A stretch of DNA of 64,000 bases. It comes from Treponema sp. (GTDB taxonomy: Bacteria > Spirochaetota > Spirochaetia > Treponematales > Breznakiellaceae). The position numbers and the translations under genes are program-made. Every line of letters begins with the position of its first letter. Positions within the stretch are counted from its first letter, which is position 1. The stretch lies in the NCBI GenBank assembly GCA_031267685.1, contig JAIRYV010000040.1:1-64000 (forward strand), read 5' to 3'. The notes below the pieces were generated by a model that saw only the letters and a program-made list of their open reading frames with translations, ran no database searches and was not told where the DNA came from. Shown piece by piece: positions 15,068 to 55,976 of the stretch.

Positions 15068-15360
15068 TACATCTCCTTCCTAAAATCTTTCAGACCCTTC
15101 CTAAAAACTTCTACACCCTTCCTAAAAACTTCTACACCCTTCCTAAAAAGTTTTACACCCTTCCTAAAAACTTCTACACCCTTCCTAAAAAGTTTTACAC
15201 CCTTCCTAAAAACTTCTACACCCTTCCTAAAATCTTTCAGACCCTTCCTAAAAACTTCTACACCCTTCCTAAAAAGTTTTACACCCTTCCTAAAAAGTTT
15301 TACACCCTTCCTAGAAAGTTTTACACCCTCCCTAAAAACTTTTACACCCTTCCCCTTTTC
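15068..15360. repeat. 21-bp minisatellite with phased A-tracts
   Basis: About 14 units with a 21-bp period, each holding ACCCTTCCTAAAAA followed by CTTCTAC, GTTTTAC or TCTTTCA. The three unit versions are interspersed. The plus strand is open and would read (F/Y)TLPKNF heptads, but there is no convincing gene start, so I treat it as a repeat. The A4-5 run in every 21-bp unit falls on the same face of the helix and should bend the DNA. Flanks 14851-15067 and 15361-15530 hold nothing recognisable. Confidence 0.9.
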
Positions 15361-34816: not shown

Positions 34817-35587
34817 ATTATAATCCCTTAAAGCAGGTCAAGTGTTAAAATATTCTCTATAATTCCTATAAAAGATAGCGAACTTTGCACGTTCCAAAAC
34901 TTGTTGTAATCCCTTAAAGCAGGTCAATGTTCAAATCAGGAGACGGATCGGAAGTTTCAGGAACTAGTTCCAATGTTGTAATCCCTTAAAGCAGGTCAAT
35001 TGTCCAAATCATGCTTGACTACTACCTTAGACAGACATTAGAAGCGTTGTAATCCCTTAAAGCAGGTCAATGGTTAAAATACAAGAGCCACTATTTCCTC
35101 ATTCCTTATCGTACCTTGTTGTAATCCCTTAAAGCAGGTCAAGTGTTAAAATATTCTCTATAATTCCTAGAAAAGATAACGAACTTTTCCAAAACTTGTT
35201 GTAATCCCTTAAAGCAGGTCAAGTGTCCAAATCATGATCGATTACTACCTTAGACAGACGTTAGAAGCGTTGTAATCCCTTAAAGCAGGTCAATGGTTAA
35301 AATCGGCAGTCTTGCACAATATCAAAGCAAAAACAATGTTGTAATCAGGTCAATAGTTCAAATAATCAAAGCCTGAACAGCTCCGTATCAAAGCAAAAAC
35401 AATGTTGTAATCCCTTAAAGCAGGTCAATAGTTCAAATTCTAGTCTTGGACATCAATGGGATACTTTTCTACCTATGGTTGTAATCCCTTTAATCAGGTC
35501 AATAGTTTAAATAGGAGCTTATTTATGCAGTTTAAAAAAGCAATAAAGTCTCGTTGTAATCCCTTTAATCAGGTCAATAGTTCAAAT
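34817..35587 (-). CRISPR. CRISPR array, 11 repeats, type III-A associated
   Basis: Repeats of 34-35 bp (plus-strand core GTTGTAATCCCTTAAAGCAG) start at 34817 (degenerate), 34903, 34975, 35046, 35118, 35198, 35269, 35338 (26 bp only, 9 bases deleted), 35404, 35478 and 35553. Spacers are 34-51 bp. The minus-strand repeat ends GGGATTACAAC, the form usual for type III, so transcription runs right to left with the leader next to cas2. The two leader-proximal repeats have GATTAAAGGG where distal ones have GCTTTAAGGG. Several spacers are diverged duplicates. Confidence 0.93.
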
Positions 35588-35863
35588 ACTACCCCTCACA
35601 ACTCCTTACCATACTGCAACTTACAAAGCAAGTTTCGCATACCTCCCGCAAAAAAGTTAATACACACCCGTCTCGCAGAGGAAAGACCGGCCTTTGTAAG
35701 CATAACTTTTTAAACTGCAAGTAATTATAGTTTTCGCATACCTCCCCTGTTTTCCGGCGGTTCTGCGGGAAAACGGAGATTTGCAATTCTGCCCAAAACC
35801 ACTTGAGCCATTGGAGCCACTTCGCTTCCCTTATGTCATACAAGATGAGCCAGCGCTGATGTT
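35588..35863 (-). promoter_or_regulatory. CRISPR leader with vestigial second cas2 start
   Basis: Between array and cas2. It has TTTCGCATACCTCCC twice (35634-35648 and 35733-35747) and a segment at about 35733-35825 homologous to the region upstream of cas1 (37220-37297), including a GTTTTCC...GGAAAAC stem. It also contains MKHQRWLILYDIREAK from ATG 35867, which overlaps the original cas2 stop by ATGA and looks like the first 16 residues of a second Cas2, truncated where the leader element begins. Confidence 0.6.
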
Positions 35864-36140
35864 TCATAGTATCTCAAAACTCACTTCTTCAACAAGAACC
35901 CCCCGTGACTTGGGTCCGCGCGCCGTGAAGACAATCTGAACAGAGCAGATACAACACGAGACTGTCCTCCTTTTCATTGATGATACCAAGTAATGTCCGC
36001 TTGATTTCCTCTGCCATTGAGGACTCTACATCACACTGAAAAAATGACTTCTGTACCCGCAAACCAAAACGCTCAAGTATTTTTGATACTTCTTGCCGGC
36101 GATGCGTATCGACAATGTCATAGGCAAACAGATACGTCAT
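35864..36140 (-). pseudogene. cas2: Cas2, C-terminus frameshifted
   Basis: Cas2 partners Cas1 in spacer integration. The first 80 residues look normal: MTYLFAYDIVDTHRRQEVSKILERFGLRVQKSFFQCDV is the ferredoxin-fold start with the YDI metal-binding Asp. A run of six G (minus strand, about 35897-35902) puts the natural end out of frame: with one G fewer the frame continues VLVEEVSFEIL to TGA 35864, which is a typical Cas2 tail. As it stands the protein stops at 35889 (83 residues, tail TGGSC). The core might still fold. It overlaps the cas1 stop (ATGA). Confidence 0.75.
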
Positions 36141-37187
36141 CGGTATAAAAACCCCTTGTATTCTTTTTCTTCACCCAGTAAGACCCGTTTGAGATGCTTT
36201 ACCTGTTCCATAATAATAGTGTTTAAGGAAACAGTGTGGTCAAGTCCCTGATATTGTACTTTATTTTCCATTTTTTTCTCAAACACTGGAATTACTTTCT
36301 TTAACCCGTCACGGGTAAGCAGAACTATTTTTTCGGAGGGCGCCTCACCTTCATTCGGGTCAAACAATGCCTTCTTTATATCAGCGGGGGATTTTTGTTC
36401 AAAATCCATGGGTGGCAAGTGTATTGAGATTAAAAAGCGAACAGCAGATGGTATCCACAAACGGCGTGCGGAACTCTTCCATTAAATCAAAAGTTAGCGC
36501 GTTTTTGCCATAATCAGAGGCGTGGAGAAAACCACGCCATTGGATCAAGACCAGCGGTTTCAATCGCAGTCTCAACGCGATACATGAGCAGGGTATAGAG
36601 AAAACTCAGCGTCGCGTTGACATTGGTCTGGGGCGGATTTTTGCTGCGGCTGGGAAATTCAGCCCAGTCGGGAATCAAATTATATCTGAATACTGAGAAA
36701 TAGTTTTTCGCGGCATTACCCTCATAGCCGCGCAGTTCATCGAGTGTCCGCACCTGTTCAGCGCGATCAAGCGTTACTTTTAGCGCCTGAATCGCTGTGG
36801 CACACGGCATCACTGTTCGTTTTTCGTTTGATACGCTGAACAAATGTTAATTCATTTTTGATCTTTGCGATCACAATGGATTTTGCGAGCGGCAACGCCT
36901 ACTGTTCATTATCAGAAATGGTATATTGCTTTTTTCTAAGCAATATATTTTTAGCGCTGGTAAAAACCAGTTTGCCATTAAACCGCCCGTTTGAACTGAT
37001 AAACAGCGTGTTAATCTGATACTTCATAAGGAGCCGCATTGCCGCGCCACTTATCGACACCACGCCTGATATAATAAGACTATCAGTACGGTGCGGGAAC
37101 ATTTCCCGCACCGTACTGTCAGGCTGGTGAATTCCAGCGTTTCGTTTGTGCAACTGAGCTTTCCATGCTCAGAAATGATATATACAA
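36137..37187 (-). pseudogene. cas1: Cas1, decayed by one nonsense and at least four frameshifts
   Basis: Cas1 is the integrase of CRISPR adaptation. All conserved blocks survive, but in different frames: YIISEHGKL (likely TTG start near 37187), frameshift, VREMFPHRTDSLIISGVVS, then TAG at 36899, in-frame SIVIAKIKNELTFVQRIKR, frameshift near 36800, LDELRGYEGNAAKNYFSVF (catalytic Glu), GLDP, frameshift near 36525, GFLH...FDLMEEFR (catalytic His and Glu/Asp), frameshift near 36415, then MDFEQKSPADIKK to the TGA at 36137. The neighbouring csm genes are open, so this is real decay or local error, not a general frame problem. Confidence 0.9.
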
Positions 37188-37226
37188 CCGATATTATTTT
37201 ATCCTAACTCTAATATTCACAAACAT

Positions 37227-37262
37227 CCTCTGTTTTCCAGCGGTTCGACAGGAAAACAGAGG
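37227..37262. repeat. Hairpin upstream of cas1, leader-like
   Basis: Perfect 12-bp arms CCTCTGTTTTCC (37227-37238) and GGAAAACAGAGG (37251-37262) with a 12-base loop, between csm5 and cas1. The surrounding 75 bp is homologous to part of the CRISPR leader at 35733-35825. Confidence 0.8.
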
Positions 37263-37296
37263 TTTGTGATGCTGTCAAAAACCTCTGAACCGTTTT

Positions 37297-38508
37297 TTAC
37301 AAAAACTTCTGGCGCGCTGGCTCCTTCACCGACAAAACACACCAGCCCATTGGTACATACTGGCCGTCATAGTCAAACACGGTACGGGTGTTGCCCGCGC
37401 CTTTAGGCGTGTTAGGCTTGCGGAAATTTTCCTCAAAGGTAACAAATTCAACCTGACTCCAGCGACCAACACGGAAAATACACTGGGTTTTGCTTCGGGA
37501 AGTATCAAGGGCCTGTTTCAAATCATGGATGATACGAAGACTTGAATCAATGGAGTTTTTATAGAACCGGTCATATTCTTCCTGAAATGCGCTCCAGTAA
37601 AAATCATTGCATGACTCTATGATTTCCTGCATGGAAAGTGGCATAGTTTTTTTGTTATCTTTAGGAAAGCGAGTAGCTTGTAAATCAGTATCAATACTGA
37701 TAACCATTTCAGCGAAAACATTTTTTCCACCCAGCAGGCTTCCACGCAATACTTCCGCCTGAATTTGCAGTTTATCAAGGCCGCTAAGTTCCCCGCTTGT
37801 CTTACTGCATGAGATATTTTTTAAGAGACCCGTCAGTTGTGTACCACTTGCTTTGAATGTACAGTCCGCAATTGAGAGACAGCGAAAAGGATCGTTTTTA
37901 GCGTCATTGTATTCGAGTAATTCTTTTTGCATTGTTGCCTCGTAACGCGCTATGTTTCTGACGAGAAAGCGCTCATTTCTTTCTGCCAACAGCGCATTAT
38001 AACCGTGCAGCAAATTATCATAGCGCTTTCTGTAATTAGGATCAGCCAGAAGATAATTTAAGATCGCGGTTCTGAAGGAACCTTTAATCGAGCTTCCCGG
38101 AATAGCCGGACGCGGTGAACCTTCTGTATGATACATAGACAGAACTTCCGCCGAGTTATCAAGAGGGTCTTTACTTCTATTTTCTTTATACTTTTGAATA
38201 AAACTGGCAGTTACATCACAAGGATAATCAGTATCGCTGATTTCCGTACATTGATCATTAAAAAACTTCTGTAACTCTTTCATGTTTCCAGCAACGCTTG
38301 CGCGATCAAAAGCTGTCAAGTCTTTTTGTTCTGCAATGAGCCGCTCAAGTATTTTGTCGCTGGAAAATTTGAAATACATCGGCTTTTTGAAATCAACTTC
38401 CCCAATTTTAGTGGCGATTTTATAATCCAGCGGCGTCAATGTTTTCCCTGTTCCAATGTGAACGCCGGTGAGCGGCCTTATGCTTACGGTGTATTGTTGT
38501 TTTGCCAT
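37297..38508 (-). CDS. csm5: Type III-A CRISPR protein Csm5 (RAMP)
   Basis: 403-residue RAMP-superfamily protein that caps the crRNA 3' side of the Csm complex. N-terminal TVSIRPLTGVHIGTGKTLTPLDY (RAMP first strand and glycine-rich turn) and IPGSSIKGSFRTAILN near 136-151 are the expected signatures. It is the last gene of the csm operon, 13 bases after csm4. The frame is intact. Confidence 0.9.
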   Translation of the reverse strand: MAKQQYTVSIRPLTGVHIGTGKTLTPLDYKIATKIGEVDFKKPMYFKFSSDKILERLIAEQKDLTAFDRASVAGNMKELQKFFNDQCTEISDTDYPCDVTASFIQKYKENRSKDPLDNSAEVLSMYHTEGSPRPAIPGSSIKGSFRTAILNYLLADPNYRKRYDNLLHGYNALLAERNERFLVRNIARYEATMQKELLEYNDAKNDPFRCLSIADCTFKASGTQLTGLLKNISCSKTSGELSGLDKLQIQAEVLRGSLLGGKNVFAEMVISIDTDLQATRFPKDNKKTMPLSMQEIIESCNDFYWSAFQEEYDRFYKNSIDSSLRIIHDLKQALDTSRSKTQCIFRVGRWSQVEFVTFEENFRKPNTPKGAGNTRTVFDYDGQYVPMGWCVLSVKEPARQKFL

Positions 38509-38521
38509 TATGTTTTTCTCC

Positions 38522-39394
38522 TCATGCTATGGCTATGACCGGCGTAAACGCGGACTGGCAAATGCGCTTATCTTTATGAACACCGCTAAGCAGCGCACCC
38601 GCGTACTCAAGCGGCGTTTTCGAGGTAAACACCGCGCCTTCATCGTATAATAAAACAGTTTTTTTATACGGCGATAAAACAGAAGCAAACATACCGCCAA
38701 TTCTGCCGGTTCTGACAAAAATATCAGCGCGAAGATTTTCGATATTTTGATGGCGCACAAAAGGCCCAAGCGCCATGTATGTTGCGCTGCCTTTATTTTT
38801 AGCTACAACCGGTTCCGCACCTTGTTTAACGCTTATCCTGCCTTTGCCTGTGGAAGTGTCCGCACCATAGCCGTTTTCAAGCGCCATCTCAAAAAGCTGC
38901 GTAACCCGCGCCGCGTCAAACAACGACAGCGCGTATACATCCCATTCCGATATTTCCGCCCAGTATTCCTCCACCGCGTAAAGCCCCTGGTCCAGCACCG
39001 TGTTTGTTGCGCGGTTTATCACGTTATGCATGAACTGCCTTGTCTTAAAAAACGCGGAATACTTGTATGACATATCCGGTGTGTTAGAAAAATATTGAGA
39101 CGCAGCTTCGTATTGTATCTTTTTATTTTTCTTGATGTCCGCGTATTTTTCCCGAGTTAAGGTTCCCTCTCTTAGTTTAGGTTCAGGCAAAGGCTTGCAT
39201 ATCATGTCCTTGGGAAACGCGCTTGAAACAATGAGCGGGGGCTGCCCGCTTTTTTCCTGTTCAAGAAAAGCCGCAACAGCCTCGTCTCCTTCTCGATTAG
39301 CAATGCCCCAGGCTATGTGTCCCCACAAGGTGTCGCCTTTAAGCAACGTTACCAGCGAAGAATGTATTTCTAGCGTGATTCGGTATAGTGTCAT
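38522..39394 (-). CDS. csm4: Type III-A CRISPR protein Csm4 (RAMP)
   Basis: Binds the 5' tag of crRNA and contacts Cas10. From ATG 39394 it is 290 residues; an in-frame extension to 39484 overlaps csm3 and lacks the fold start. It begins MTLYRITLEIHSSLVTLLKGDTLWGHIAWG, the standard Csm4 N-terminus, and has GYGADTSTGKGRISV near 195-209 (glycine-rich loop). Confidence 0.9.
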   Translation of the reverse strand: MTLYRITLEIHSSLVTLLKGDTLWGHIAWGIANREGDEAVAAFLEQEKSGQPPLIVSSAFPKDMICKPLPEPKLREGTLTREKYADIKKNKKIQYEAASQYFSNTPDMSYKYSAFFKTRQFMHNVINRATNTVLDQGLYAVEEYWAEISEWDVYALSLFDAARVTQLFEMALENGYGADTSTGKGRISVKQGAEPVVAKNKGSATYMALGPFVRHQNIENLRADIFVRTGRIGGMFASVLSPYKKTVLLYDEGAVFTSKTPLEYAGALLSGVHKDKRICQSAFTPVIAIA

Positions 39395-39404
39395 AAACAC
39401 CGCC

Positions 39405-40076
39405 TTAAAGCGTAATCTCTTTTCCGTGTTCATCGCGCAGACTGGCAAATTCAATCCGCCCGTTTCCCCGCGTGCCACCACCACCGAGGTAATCGTTCTG
39501 TAAAAGCCGCAAACTTTCTTTTACGACTTTTTCAAAGTTGCTCTCATCAATTGCCCCGTTATCGCCAGTGTCAATGACACGGTAGACCAGCTCAAAATCA
39601 AACCTGACCCCCGGAACAACCCGCTCAATCGGCCGGGGATTTGCCTCAGCAGTAATGCGGTTCAGACTGTTTTCGTGTTTTTCCTCAATAATCGGTTTAC
39701 CCTCATTAAATTTTTGCCGGTCTTCACTGGAAAGACCCGCGTCGCGGACAATCAGCCGCGTGGGACCCTTGCTATCATCAGCGCTTCCCCTGTTGTTATT
39801 CGCGCTGCCAAAAACGCGGCACACAGGACAATCAGCGCGACCACAAGCACAGGGCTTACCGCTGAATTGTTTTACCTTATCCAGCTTCCATTCCAACAGG
39901 GAACGCATTTTGCCTTTAATCGACGAACCGGGAATATACGGTTCCTGTGTCAGGGGATTGCGGATAATGGGATTATCCATACCACCAATTTCGACCCGGT
40001 CATTACCCGCGCCAATATGCAGACCGGTTTTGACTACCAGCGAGCCGCTTATCTTTTTTGATGCAATCTGTTTCAT
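39405..40076 (-). CDS. csm3: Type III-A CRISPR protein Csm3 (backbone RNase)
   Basis: 223-residue backbone subunit that cuts target RNA every six bases. The catalytic Asp is present in IGGMDNPIIRNP (near 31), followed by YIPGSSIKGKMRSLLEWK; a zinc-type cluster CACGRADCPVC near 77-87 and GGGGTRGNGRIEF near 199-211 complete the pattern. Intact, so target-RNA cleavage should be possible. Confidence 0.95.
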   Translation of the reverse strand: MKQIASKKISGSLVVKTGLHIGAGNDRVEIGGMDNPIIRNPLTQEPYIPGSSIKGKMRSLLEWKLDKVKQFSGKPCACGRADCPVCRVFGSANNNRGSADDSKGPTRLIVRDAGLSSEDRQKFNEGKPIIEEKHENSLNRITAEANPRPIERVVPGVRFDFELVYRVIDTGDNGAIDESNFEKVVKESLRLLQNDYLGGGGTRGNGRIEFASLRDEHGKEITL

Positions 40077-40088
40077 GGCTTGCTCCTT

Positions 40089-40565
40089 TTAATCTCTTTT
40101 GGGATTCTTCGCATAATAGAATCCATAGACAGCCTCAAACAAGGCCACAAAGACATGATAGTCTTTTGCTTCCTTAACCAAATCAATGCCCCGCGTGATA
40201 AAGTCAGCGAGATTTTTATAAACGCCTTCCTCAGACCGGTTCGTCCTAATCGCACGGGCAACCGCATAGTTGATCTTTGATTTGATCATCTTGATGTACG
40301 GTAACTGAGCCGCCCATTGTTCAGGAACAGCGTCAATGAGCCGATCAAAACGCTTGACCTCATCAAACAAACGCCGCAGTTGGGTGTTGCTCACTGCAAT
40401 CTTGCTCTCTTTAATAAAAAAGGTGTCAGCGATTTTGCTCGCCGTATCGCTAAAAAGATCAGGTTTGGGATTCTTTTCGCCATCAGCGTAAAAACTCTTG
40501 ATAGCAACCGGCGGTAACGCCTGCGGCCTCCCATCTCCCTCTCTTTGTCCTCTATTATCTACCAT
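40089..40565 (-). CDS. csm2: Type III-A CRISPR small subunit Csm2
   Basis: 158-residue helical small subunit that lines the crRNA-target duplex. The N-terminus is basic and disordered; the core FFIKESKIAVSNTQLRRLFDEVKRF and the C-terminal FVALFEAVYGFYYAK are recognisable Csm2 features. It starts directly after the cas10 stop and precedes csm3 by 12 bases. Confidence 0.88.
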   Translation of the reverse strand: MVDNRGQREGDGRPQALPPVAIKSFYADGEKNPKPDLFSDTASKIADTFFIKESKIAVSNTQLRRLFDEVKRFDRLIDAVPEQWAAQLPYIKMIKSKINYAVARAIRTNRSEEGVYKNLADFITRGIDLVKEAKDYHVFVALFEAVYGFYYAKNPKRD

Positions 40566-42878
40566 TTAGTTCTCCTTGTTTTTTCTTTGCTTATATAAAG
40601 CATAACTCACCGCAATACGCGATTTTTCAATGGCATCTGTCGTACCCAATTGCATAAACCATTCCCTCACTGTTTTATCCTTGATATTCCGCACTACCAT
40701 ATAGTTGAAGTTGCTCACCCAGACAAGATCGCGCAAATTACCTTGCTTAACGCTTTTTGCGCGGTTGGCAAGGTCTATCATCTGGTATACAACACTACTG
40801 CTCAGTTTATCTTCTTTCATATATTGAACTATTTGTTCGCCATATTCAAGATATTTTTTGTACTCATCCCAGCCCACCGTAACGCCAAACACCGATATGC
40901 CGTCTTTAACAAGACTGCCTTTTACTATCCGCTTTTTCGCCTCATCCAGCGCGGCATTTGCCTCCTCCGCGATATTCCGCACGGGCAGAGAAGAACTTGC
41001 CAGCGCAATGCCGCCGGAAAGGGTGATTGACGGATTGGTGTTGGTAAGCCTGTCAAGCTCTTTTCTAAAATCCGCCGCAAACCACATGACAGTATCCCAC
41101 GCGCCAAGCACACAGAGATCATCGCCACCAGAAAACACCGTGTATATCTTCTCAGTGTATTCGGGATTATTACGGACAAATTGCGCGTAATACGCTGAGA
41201 AGAAATAATGCAGATGACGGCTTAACTGTGCATAGCGCGAAAAAGACATACGGTTATCTTTACCCTCGCCCATTGAAGAGGTAAACATCAGCCCCAGATT
41301 GTCAATATCAGCCTTGAACATCGCCAGTTTATTCGCACCAACAGAAGTATCGGCGATTTCTTCAAACGTTTTGAGTTCACCGCGAGCTTCATCTTTCCAC
41401 GGAGCCACATAAGGCAAAAACATGAGCGGATAGCGAGGCTTAAACTCATTGATAAAAGAACCAAAGGACAAGTCGTCTCTTTTTATTATTTTGAGCATAA
41501 GCCCAAAATGCGACAACGTTTCTGGTTTCAGAATGATTTTGTTTGCCCGCAGTAAATCACGCCCAATATCAATCAGGTCCGCGCAGTTGCGGCAGAGATT
41601 CCCATCGTTTCCCGCAAATTCGTTAGGCATGGTTTCGCAGCACGTGCATTCTCCATTCTTCCACGGAAGGTTATCGTACAGCGAACCAAGCACCTGCCCA
41701 TCCGCCATAAGCGCAGCCTGCATCTTCCGCTGTTTCGCACACTCAGCAGCATAAGCAATCTTGTTAAGCAACTTTTGTATGCCCTCTTTTCGCACATCAG
41801 CGTAAGAAGCTGGAACCCCATCACTCAGCACAAACGCCAGTTTCCCCACGAATTCATCAATAACATACCGTTCAAGTGTAAGCCTCAGTTCCGGCACGAG
41901 CTTCCGCACCTCGTCCGTATTCGGAACCAGTAATAAAAACTTACCACCAGCCAAAGTAACGATATGCTCCCGCGAAACATTACATTGCGCGGCAACATGT
42001 TCAGCCATAATCTCGCTCAATGCCCATAACTCAAAACTGCGGGCGCGAAGCAGATTGGCGTTTTCACCCATGCCTTTCAGGTCAAAGATATATTTCTGTA
42101 TCCCCGACATATCGCCGTTTATAAACAAAAACTTCGGCTCATCATGATCAAGCGCCTCTGGCGTTTCCATTTGCCGCGCCTCGTGATACCGGTACAGAGC
42201 GCCCGCAAAGGCCGCCGTTGTCTTTGAGTGCTGATACAGGCTTATATCCGAGTCATCGTTAGTAGCCGACGGAATACACCAGAAATACTGTTCAAGAAGC
42301 GTATCAAGGGCAAGCATAAACTCAGGATACGCCAAGCCTTTGAGCGCCAGAAAATCCCGCTCAAACTGATCCCACAACACTCGGTATTGTTCCTTGCTCA
42401 CCTTGCTGTGCGTTACGGCAAGTATCGCGTCCTCCTCCAGCGCTTTAAGTGGACTGTATGCCCGTTTAGCCTGCGCCGCCTCTTTCAAGTGCAATGTAGA
42501 AAGCAGATGCGTAAGTGGCTTCTCATAAAAACGCGCAGGCGTTTCCTCTGCTTTGTCTGGAAGCACATCTCGGCGATCCGTACCACTGCTCAGCCTGTCG
42601 CCATGGGCAATAAGCCACTCATGGTATGAGGACGGGTTATGATGACTCGCGGCAAGGCGTATCACCTCCGCTGTGTTTAACTCTCCCGGCAGCACATCCT
42701 TCATTGATTGCAGAAACCCTTCGGTATACAGAACGTGCTTATGACTGTACCAGCCGCCTTTCTGTAGCTTGCAAAGCTGGCCTTCCATGTCTTTCGAGTA
42801 ATACTGTTCCACATCAGCTCGCTGGGCAAACTTCCCAACATCATGAAGCCATGCGGCAAGTATGATTTCTTTGTACAT
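40566..42878 (-). CDS. csm1: Cas10/Csm1 with HD nuclease and GGDD cyclase
   Basis: 770-residue large subunit of the type III-A complex. N-terminal HD domain with LHDVGKFAQRAD (near 10-21) for DNA cleavage; palm 1; a zinc ribbon CTCCETMP...CRNCADL near 410-440; palm 2 with FSGGDDLCV (GGDD near 582-585), the site that makes cyclic oligoadenylates from ATP; and a C-terminal helical domain. Both active sites look intact. It heads the operon, with a TAGAAT -10 at 42885-42890 and TTGGCA -35 at 42909-42914 on the minus strand. Confidence 0.95.
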   Translation of the reverse strand: MYKEIILAAWLHDVGKFAQRADVEQYYSKDMEGQLCKLQKGGWYSHKHVLYTEGFLQSMKDVLPGELNTAEVIRLAASHHNPSSYHEWLIAHGDRLSSGTDRRDVLPDKAEETPARFYEKPLTHLLSTLHLKEAAQAKRAYSPLKALEEDAILAVTHSKVSKEQYRVLWDQFERDFLALKGLAYPEFMLALDTLLEQYFWCIPSATNDDSDISLYQHSKTTAAFAGALYRYHEARQMETPEALDHDEPKFLFINGDMSGIQKYIFDLKGMGENANLLRARSFELWALSEIMAEHVAAQCNVSREHIVTLAGGKFLLLVPNTDEVRKLVPELRLTLERYVIDEFVGKLAFVLSDGVPASYADVRKEGIQKLLNKIAYAAECAKQRKMQAALMADGQVLGSLYDNLPWKNGECTCCETMPNEFAGNDGNLCRNCADLIDIGRDLLRANKIILKPETLSHFGLMLKIIKRDDLSFGSFINEFKPRYPLMFLPYVAPWKDEARGELKTFEEIADTSVGANKLAMFKADIDNLGLMFTSSMGEGKDNRMSFSRYAQLSRHLHYFFSAYYAQFVRNNPEYTEKIYTVFSGGDDLCVLGAWDTVMWFAADFRKELDRLTNTNPSITLSGGIALASSSLPVRNIAEEANAALDEAKKRIVKGSLVKDGISVFGVTVGWDEYKKYLEYGEQIVQYMKEDKLSSSVVYQMIDLANRAKSVKQGNLRDLVWVSNFNYMVVRNIKDKTVREWFMQLGTTDAIEKSRIAVSYALYKQRKNKEN

Positions 42879-46706: not shown

Positions 46707-46985
46707 GGTACAAGTATACAATGATAATCGAAATATTTCCCGATCCAGATCCGGATCACGCACATAGGCTCTCATACAACGTGTACCCGAATACATTCGC
46801 CTTCATACACAGCTGACTACAGCAGTTTCAGTCTAAGCGATAGCCGTTCAAGCAGTACTCAAGAAGCTCTTTCTTTAGTTTCAACATGCTTTGTTCATCT
46901 GTCATAGTGTCTCATGCAGAAACGCGAGAATGCAAAAAAGGGTGATACATGCATAATCTTCCCTACACTTGGACTGCAAAACGCC

Positions 46986-47474
46986 CTATTTGATGACGCT
47001 ATTATCCTCATAGCATTCCTCAAGGATCCCGCCCAGACAGCATGCAAAGAGAGCCATGATCCCGCCTCTGCCTTGATAGGTAGCATAGAGAATTATGCAA
47101 GCTGACTTGGCTCTGGCATGAACCGTGTGCCAATCATCAATGGTCAAAGGCACTTCCATGCCCCACTGAGTGAGCAAGTCGTGCCAAACCATAGATACAC
47201 TGCTAATCCGCCGCGATCCAGTTTGAAGAATAATCCAGATATGACTATCACTGTCCTTCAAGTTCGGATATTGACTGGAATTCGCCTTGATGATAGTGTC
47301 AACAGGAAGCCACACGGCAGTATACAGCTTAAGCGTTGGCGCATCAAGGATGACCACATCGGTACTATCTCCAGATGCCATCATCACATTGTACTGCTCA
47401 TTGACTCCAGCAGCAGGATTCAAGGTTCCGTTGATCTTCACGCCGATTGCGGTGTCAGAGACCGCGTTCTCCAA
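46986..47474 (-). pseudogene. Fragment of a sugar-binding protein gene
   Basis: About 160 codons with QYNVMMASGDSTDVVILDAP and LLTQWGMEVPLTIDDWHTV, which correspond to the middle of a family 1 (LplA-type) solute-binding protein (compare WLDKLGLPIPATTEEYYN in the intact copy at 20637). The signal peptide is absent and the C-terminal two thirds are missing. Low-confidence further remnants continue to about 46895. Confidence 0.65.
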
Positions 47475-47513
47475 CTGCCCGACTGCTATGGACGCCGCAT
47501 CAGTTATCTGGCT

Positions 47514-47822
47514 CTACAAAACGATTGTTCTCAGCCATAATTGCAGCAGGTAGAATGGGATGTTCTGGGAAAATGTCCGCATGACAATCATATTCCCTGT
47601 ACTGATCGCGCCCGAAATAATCATAACCGAGAAGGTGTCAAGCATGTTATAACTGCTAATCACGAGATACACGGGGATCAAGCCCTCACCAAAGAACATG
47701 GTTAGGGTGATCATAAACGTAAAAAAGCTCTTTCCAAAGAACTGCCTCTTGTTTTGGGACAGCGCATAAGCGCCTGCAATGGTCAAGATACGGTTTACCG
47801 CAGTGCCACAGACCGTATACAT
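47514..47822 (-). pseudogene. Fragment of a CUT1 permease (second permease)
   Basis: YALSQNKRQFFGKSFFTFMITLTMFFGEGLIPVYLVISSYNMLDT matches the region YPLTYEHLRGKKMFNTLIIFTMYFGAGTIPNYILMKDLGLLNN of the intact LplC-like permease at 17944. It then ends after MIVMRTFSQNIPF, before the EAA loop, so the C-terminal half is missing. Non-functional. Confidence 0.75.
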
Positions 47823-47843
47823 AATCGTATCCTAGTAACCAGT

Positions 47844-48290
47844 CTAGATAGAGGGATAGTTCAGCACTACCTTATAGGCATTGAAGTTCAGCCTCTGGTG
47901 AATGATGCCGACCATGCATCGGATCACTGTCTCGTTACTGGAAAGAGAGTCTGTCGGCACAAACAAAAAGGGATAGCGCATGATCACACAGATGCCAAGC
48001 ATGAAACAGATAGTAAACACCTCAAACACAAGCCAGTTACGGTACAATGCTTTGATCAAACCGCGTCGGTACACATACGTTGCTATGACATCAGCGGTTT
48101 CGTACATAGCAGGATTGTACAGCAGGATGATAGAGTCTGAGCCTATTGAAAACAGCGCTCCCACACGGACGATCAGCATGATGATGATAGTGCTGACGAT
48201 TCCCGGTATGGATACGATGATCACAGTAGAGATAAAGGTCGGCAGATAACTGTAATCTTTGAACGCAATGACAGTATCGTACATTGGCAC
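47844..48290 (-). pseudogene. Fused remnants of two CUT1 permeases
   Basis: MYDTVIAFKDYSYL (start of a LplB-like permease) is followed by PAMYETADVIATYVYRRGLI...WLVFEVF (its C-terminal region), and then, without an intervening start, CVIMRYPFLFVPTDSLSSNETVI...FNAYKVVLNYP, the N-terminal region of the second permease. The middle of the first permease, including the EAA loop, is deleted. Together with the fragments downstream this is the wreck of a complete LplBC-type transporter. Confidence 0.7.
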
Positions 48291-48506: not shown

Positions 48507-48780
48507 CTGAGCTTTATTTACAGTTGACAACGCTTTGTTTACAAGTGAGAATGCTTTGTTTACAACTGATAACATCTTGTTTACAACTGGAAACGTTTTG
48601 TTTACAAGTGATAACGCTTTGTTTGCAGGTGAGAACAAGGTGTTTACAAGTGAGAATGCTTTGTTTACAGCTGAGAACAAAGTGTTTACCAGTGGAAACG
48701 GTTATTTTACAAAGGAGAACAAAGTGTTTACCAGTCAAAACAATATGTTTGCAGGTGAGAACAAGGTGTTTACAAGGGAT
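48507..48780. repeat. 21-bp minisatellite inside a decayed gene
   Basis: About 13 units of 21 bp on the theme TTTGTTTACAAGTGAGAA plus three variable bases. Frame stays open on both strands: LFTSENA-type heptads on plus, CKQSVLT-type Cys/Lys heptads on minus. The minus frame is continuous with the beta-propeller fragment to its right, so the repeats grew within or next to that gene. From 48291 to 48506 nothing else is recognisable. Confidence 0.9.
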
Positions 48781-55719: not shown

Positions 55720-55804
55720 GACCCTGGGCTGATCAGAGCGAACATCACTGTGTCGCGCAGGTACTCAAACGCGCTCCGCCTTTTGCCAACGTCGCCTTAT
55801 ACAG

Positions 55805-55976
55805 AGACGATGTTGACGGGAACAGAGACGATGGGGATGGGAACGGAAGAAATGGGGATGGGAACAGAGACGATGGGGACGGGAACAGAAGAAATGGGGA
55901 CGGGAACGGAAGAAATGGGGACGGGAACAGAGACGATGGGGACGGGAACAGAGACGATGGGGACGGGAACAGAATT
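55805..55976. repeat. 21-bp minisatellite next to the recG fragment
   Basis: Eight 21-bp units on the theme GGGAACAGAGACGATGGGGA, alternating with GGGAACGGAAGAAATGGGGA. Strongly purine-rich on the plus strand, which could form triplex or G-rich structures. Both strands are open (NRDDGDG and CSRPHRL heptads). No gene is called. Confidence 0.9.

Follow-up and report, generated by a model that had tools for sequence, protein, structure and literature searches.

A type III-A CRISPR-Cas locus of Treponema sp. with a broken adaptation module and open effector genes

The stretch of DNA analysed here (64,000 nucleotides, hereafter the window) corresponds to contig C32 in a Treponema sp. draft assembly of 2.67 Mb, which comprises 109 contigs and is 82% complete. 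A type III-A locus lies on its minus strand in the order cas10, csm2, csm3, csm4, csm5, cas1, and cas2, with a CRISPR array adjoining the operon (table 1). In the named genome collection, csm3 finds its best match in Nc350_bin164, a Spirochaetia MAG, and most of the next matches come from Treponema MAGs.

Table 1. Features of the type III-A locus (coordinates refer to the window)
Feature	Position	Strand	Remarks
cas10/csm1	40566..42878	-	770 aa, intact; TIGR02578 579.5 bits (cut-off 170); aligned with six relatives
csm2	40089..40565	-	158 aa, intact; TIGR01870, PF03750
csm3	39405..40076	-	223 aa, intact; TIGR02582 229.7 bits; Asp34 invariant in the alignment
csm4	38522..39394	-	about 290 aa, intact; TIGR01903 84 bits (cut-off 55)
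csm5	37297..38508	-	403 aa, intact; TIGR01899 50.5 bits (cut-off 38.3)
82-bp hairpin-bearing element	37205..37286		in the csm5-cas1 interval; forms a direct repeat with the element at 35722..35803
cas1 pseudogene	36140..37194	-	ATA at the start site, in-frame TAG at 36901-36899, four frameshifts
cas2a	35889..36140	-	open frame of 83 aa; the conserved tail at the C-terminus lies in another frame; PF09827 67 bits
82-bp hairpin-bearing element	35722..35803		at the cas2b remnant
cas2b remnant	35700..35867	-	first ~17 codons recognisable, remainder degenerate
Type III-A CRISPR array	34817..35587	-	11 repeats of 35 nt, 10 spacers

Each of the five effector genes occupies a single open frame and exceeds the respective NCBIfam cut-off. 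For csm4, the listed GTG start at 39484 would overlap csm3, and the ATG downstream of it agrees with the relatives. The catalytic residues are kept, that is, the HD pair, the GGDD motif, and four conserved cysteines of Cas10, and Asp34 of Csm3. At otherwise invariant alignment columns, changes are few (cas10 4/113, csm3 2/98, csm4 2/44, csm5 2/41, and csm2 0/17), and this deviation does not exceed that of functional relatives. Thus, the scores and the alignments bear out the claim of an earlier note, made from the sequence of the window, that csm1 to csm5 are full-length with HD, GGDD, and the Csm3 aspartate in place.

The cas1 gene is broken. It was aligned in a frameshift-aware manner with five intact type III-A Cas1 proteins, and every alignment showed the one in-frame TAG and four frame changes, located near 37125, 36772-36802, 36537, and 36410 of the remnant (the fitted positions differ by at most 30 bp from reference to reference). 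Pfam Cas_Cas1 matches fragments of the remnant which are spread over all three frames. Both results confirm the damage that the earlier note had described, namely the TAG at 36899 and at least four frameshifts with the conserved blocks in three frames. In addition, the initiation codon is lost and a usable in-frame start is absent nearby. A strong palindrome (37080-37122) is located within the remnant, near the first frameshift.

All six lesions fall within cas1, which makes up 1055 of the 6602 bp of cas1 and the csm genes, whereas the 5.5 kb of csm sequence carries none. If lesions were spread evenly across these genes, such a concentration would have a probability of P = 1.7e-5, or P = 1e-4 when five lesions are counted. 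The residues of the remnant have scarcely drifted, with 3 of 84 otherwise invariant columns altered and a relative rate near 1, so that the death of cas1 is recent.

The damage extends to both cas2 genes, which the earlier note had overlooked together with the degenerate array and a second, intact cas1 (both described below); the loss of cas1 itself, as that note reported it, stands. In cas2a, a frameshift beside a G6 run precedes the conserved C-terminal tail. A second cas2 is found in the III-A loci of several relatives, and what is left of it here (cas2b) aligns with scores of 45-51 against shuffled maxima of 32-38. A functional cas1-cas2 pair is usual for subtype III-A, although not defining; in this locus, cas1 and cas2a are broken and cas2b is a remnant.

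The remnants of cas1 and cas2 are bracketed by the two 82-bp elements, which are direct repeats of each other, 76% alike, and whose core motif occurs nowhere else in the genome. Elsewhere in the window there are minisatellites with units of 18 or 21 bp (42-171, 15075-15353, 48511-48776, and 55801-55973), and arrays of 21-bp units resembling them are also found on contigs C97 and C82.

Errors of sequencing or assembly in a cas1 that is in fact functional would produce frame breaks as well. In favor of this, the assembly is a draft of 109 contigs, the Cas1 sequence away from its breaks is no less conserved than that of intact proteins, and the cas2a break adjoins a homopolymer. On the other hand, the same window contains 47.8 kb of open ORFs (38 that do not overlap, each 200 aa or longer), and a uniform error rate is thus not the cause of the cas1 breaks. 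These breaks lie away from long homopolymers, and the nonsense codon, the lost start, the degraded cas2b, and the degenerate array would each need an error of their own. This explanation is, therefore, considered highly improbable, the least credible of those weighed here.

Among the 11 repeats of the III-A array there are 10 distinct sequences, one of them with a 9-nt deletion; the III-A arrays of relatives hold 1-5 repeat kinds among 6-53 repeats. Its spacers include diverged duplicates, and there is no run of identical repeats at the leader end. The 5′ crRNA handle ATTACAAC is nevertheless conserved in 10 of the 11 repeats. In its repeats and spacers the array looks fossil. Its state suggests that uptake had already become rare before cas1 died, which does not agree fully with the recent death of that gene.

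The spacers gave no targets in phage records, the four spacer patterns searched gave none in viral contigs, and most spacers lack a clear target. Partial matches were found in a genome of the same genus (G004). One of them, at L188:7502-7535, covers 34 nt of spacer 2 at 94%; the other, at L189:1846-1872, concerns spacers 5/8 and lies approximately 360 nt from a TnpB-like ORF. Another genome of the genus (G001) has an array of III-A type with duplicated spacers at a contig end (L187:11116-12049), and neither cas10 nor cas1 was detected in that genome.

There is no cas6 in the csm operon. A solitary cas6 of the same family, intact and 307 aa long, is located on contig C82, and it is this copy that supplies the cas6 usual for subtype III-A. 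Its changes at otherwise invariant columns (4/49) are on the high side. In G002, a genome of the same genus, the syntenic cas6 is broken and cas10 was not detected, an absence that is provisional as G002 is ~81% complete. Type I-C systems, one of which is present in this genome (see below), do not use Cas6, and Cas5 performs that step. For this reason the intact cas6 fits a continued use of the III-A array, and its integrity here, set against the broken copy in a sister species where cas10 was not detected, speaks for retained interference.

The operon is also devoid of a CARF effector gene such as Csm6 or Csx1, which is common in III-A loci but not defining. A search of the 82% complete genome with a Csx1 profile, run without a positive control, gave no match. 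In relatives, the position of the effector gene is taken by Csx1, Card1, CARF-deaminase, or related genes. For instance, a gene located between csm5 and cas1 of G103 (L020:3462-5552) joins a CARF-like region (Cas_NE0113) to an adenosine deaminase domain.

The same genome carries a type I-C locus on contig C97, with intact cas4, cas1, and cas2 as well as effector genes. The Cas1 of this locus scores 499.9 bits with TIGR03640 (cut-off 385), its gene shows a dN/dS of 0.135 against G002, and the array consists of 12 identical repeats. Contigs C32, C82, and C97 diverge from the genomes of the same genus to a broadly similar degree, which argues that the three very probably belong to a single lineage. 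The I-C system can probably still record spacers. The earlier note had read the locus as one where target interference is kept and spacer acquisition dropped. At the III-A locus this holds, since the effector genes are kept and adaptation is lost, but for the genome as a whole it is refuted by the intact I-C cas4-cas1-cas2 and its clean array, and the search for a second cas1 which that note had proposed was positive on C97. Furthermore, the interference set that is kept is a reduced one, as the operon has neither cas6 nor a CARF effector gene.

Given the intact I-C adaptation genes and the dN/dS of 0.135 of their cas1, Cas1-Cas2-Cas4 of that system might feed the III-A array in trans, in which case the III-A cas1 would have been redundant and its loss would not have frozen the memory. 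It has been demonstrated for types II-C and VI-B that spacers can be acquired in trans despite unlike repeats (PMC8092290). However, the repeats of the III-A array show no sequence relationship to those of the I-C array, and an array with diverged duplicates and no run of identical repeats at its leader end is the opposite of what active uptake would leave. Supply from the I-C system is, consequently, very unlikely.

In the reading that we consider probable, the adaptation module of the III-A locus (cas1, cas2a, and cas2b) became non-functional recently, while the effector genes have been kept under constraint. The sequence is best read as that of a III-A system whose memory is frozen and which would in principle still be capable of crRNA production and interference. 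With its own adaptation machinery dead, the array would be a closed memory, altered by nothing but point mutations and duplications within it. The distant cas6 on C82 would provide the enzyme that cleaves the array transcript, and the conserved repeat handle would load into Cas10-Csm2-5. The complex would then act on transcribed targets through the RNase of Csm3 and the HD DNase of Cas10. The cyclase motif of Cas10 is intact and a signalling effector was not found, so the signalling arm is uncertain. From the state of the genes we infer that crRNA production, complex assembly, and interference persist.

We likewise infer that the csm genes are still selected at present, because their frames are intact beside a decayed neighbor. 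A sugar-transporter operon (a binding protein and two permeases) survives only as remnants at 46959-48230 of the window and is intact in the same-genus genome G001 (L192). The intact csm genes stand out from this background of gene decay. The contrast of lesions between cas1 and csm, though, speaks of past constraint and not of present constraint.

This leaves room for a decay of the whole locus, in which the adaptation genes were struck first and cas10 to csm5 are unselected but not yet hit. As the death of cas1 is recent, unselected csm genes would have had little time to break. The absence of cas6 and of a CARF effector gene from the operon, the fossil array, the failure to see cas10 in genomes of the same genus, and the decayed transporter operon nearby are all in line with it. 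Against it stand the absence of any lesion in csm next to the six in cas1, the intact catalytic motifs, and the open orphan cas6. Decay of the entire locus is thus regarded as unlikely, although it is the strongest of the alternatives.

No close relative with this locus was found; G210 shares no more than the N-terminal 230 aa of Cas10, located at the edge of a contig. In the sister genomes, the flanks of the matching site lie at contig ends. A Cas10-only scan across the named genomes gave no match, and the literature search on treponeme type III loci yielded no relevant paper.

Complete treponeme III-A loci (G132, G108, G103, G142, and G118) share with the window the order cas10-csm2-csm3-csm4-csm5, and their Cas1, Cas2, and repeats are related to those described here. 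In these loci cas6 lies beside cas10 and cas1 is open, whereas in the window cas6 is distant and cas1 broken. Most of them also carry effector genes and a second cas2, in contrast to the window operon, which has no effector gene. In G108, cas10 is interrupted.

Two genomes of the same family (G042 and G201) have a csm operon like that of the window. No cas1 was detected in either genome, one of which (G042) has a completeness rating of 100% and consists of a single contig, whereas the window retains a pseudogene. In both, the HD motif of Cas10 is lost and a Csx1-like gene is present; the window keeps the HD motif and its operon is without such a gene. The Csx1-like gene adjoins csm5 in three loci (L017, L019, and L196 of G042, G094, and G201, respectively), all of which have lost the HD motif. 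Among the 80 csm3 loci retrieved, cas1 was present in the retrieved DNA of 31 and split between frames only in L097; in loci with full 10-kb flanks, it was present in 7 out of 10.

In Marinomonas mediterranea, too, a type III effector shares the genome with a complete type I system, and there a III-B complex beside a type I-F system was shown by experiment to use type I crRNA (PMC5576922). In the genome studied here, guide sharing is only a possibility. It is improbable, but conceivable, that Csm was kept after the loss of the recorder for reading the guides of the still-updating I-C array. If this were true, one system would record and the other would serve as a second, transcription-dependent route of interference.

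Loci without adaptation genes are already known, and the one described here is a well-resolved snapshot of such a locus arising rather than a new type of system. In many CRISPR loci the adaptation genes are simply missing, and here the transition is caught early. A single genome shows the lesions, the fossil array, a cas6 that stands apart, and a second recorder that is still intact, and in a sister species cas6 is breaking and csm was not found. The locus lends itself naturally to the question of how long a CRISPR memory remains useful once it is closed.

Subtypes III-G and III-H and type VII characteristically consist of an effector module without adaptation genes, and the arrays of type VII have repeats with many substitutions, interpreted as a sign of rare uptake (PMC12669027). 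In those systems the absence of adaptation is characteristic, whereas in the window it is a recent loss within a subtype, III-A, in which cas1-cas2 and cas6 are usually present (PMC5576922).
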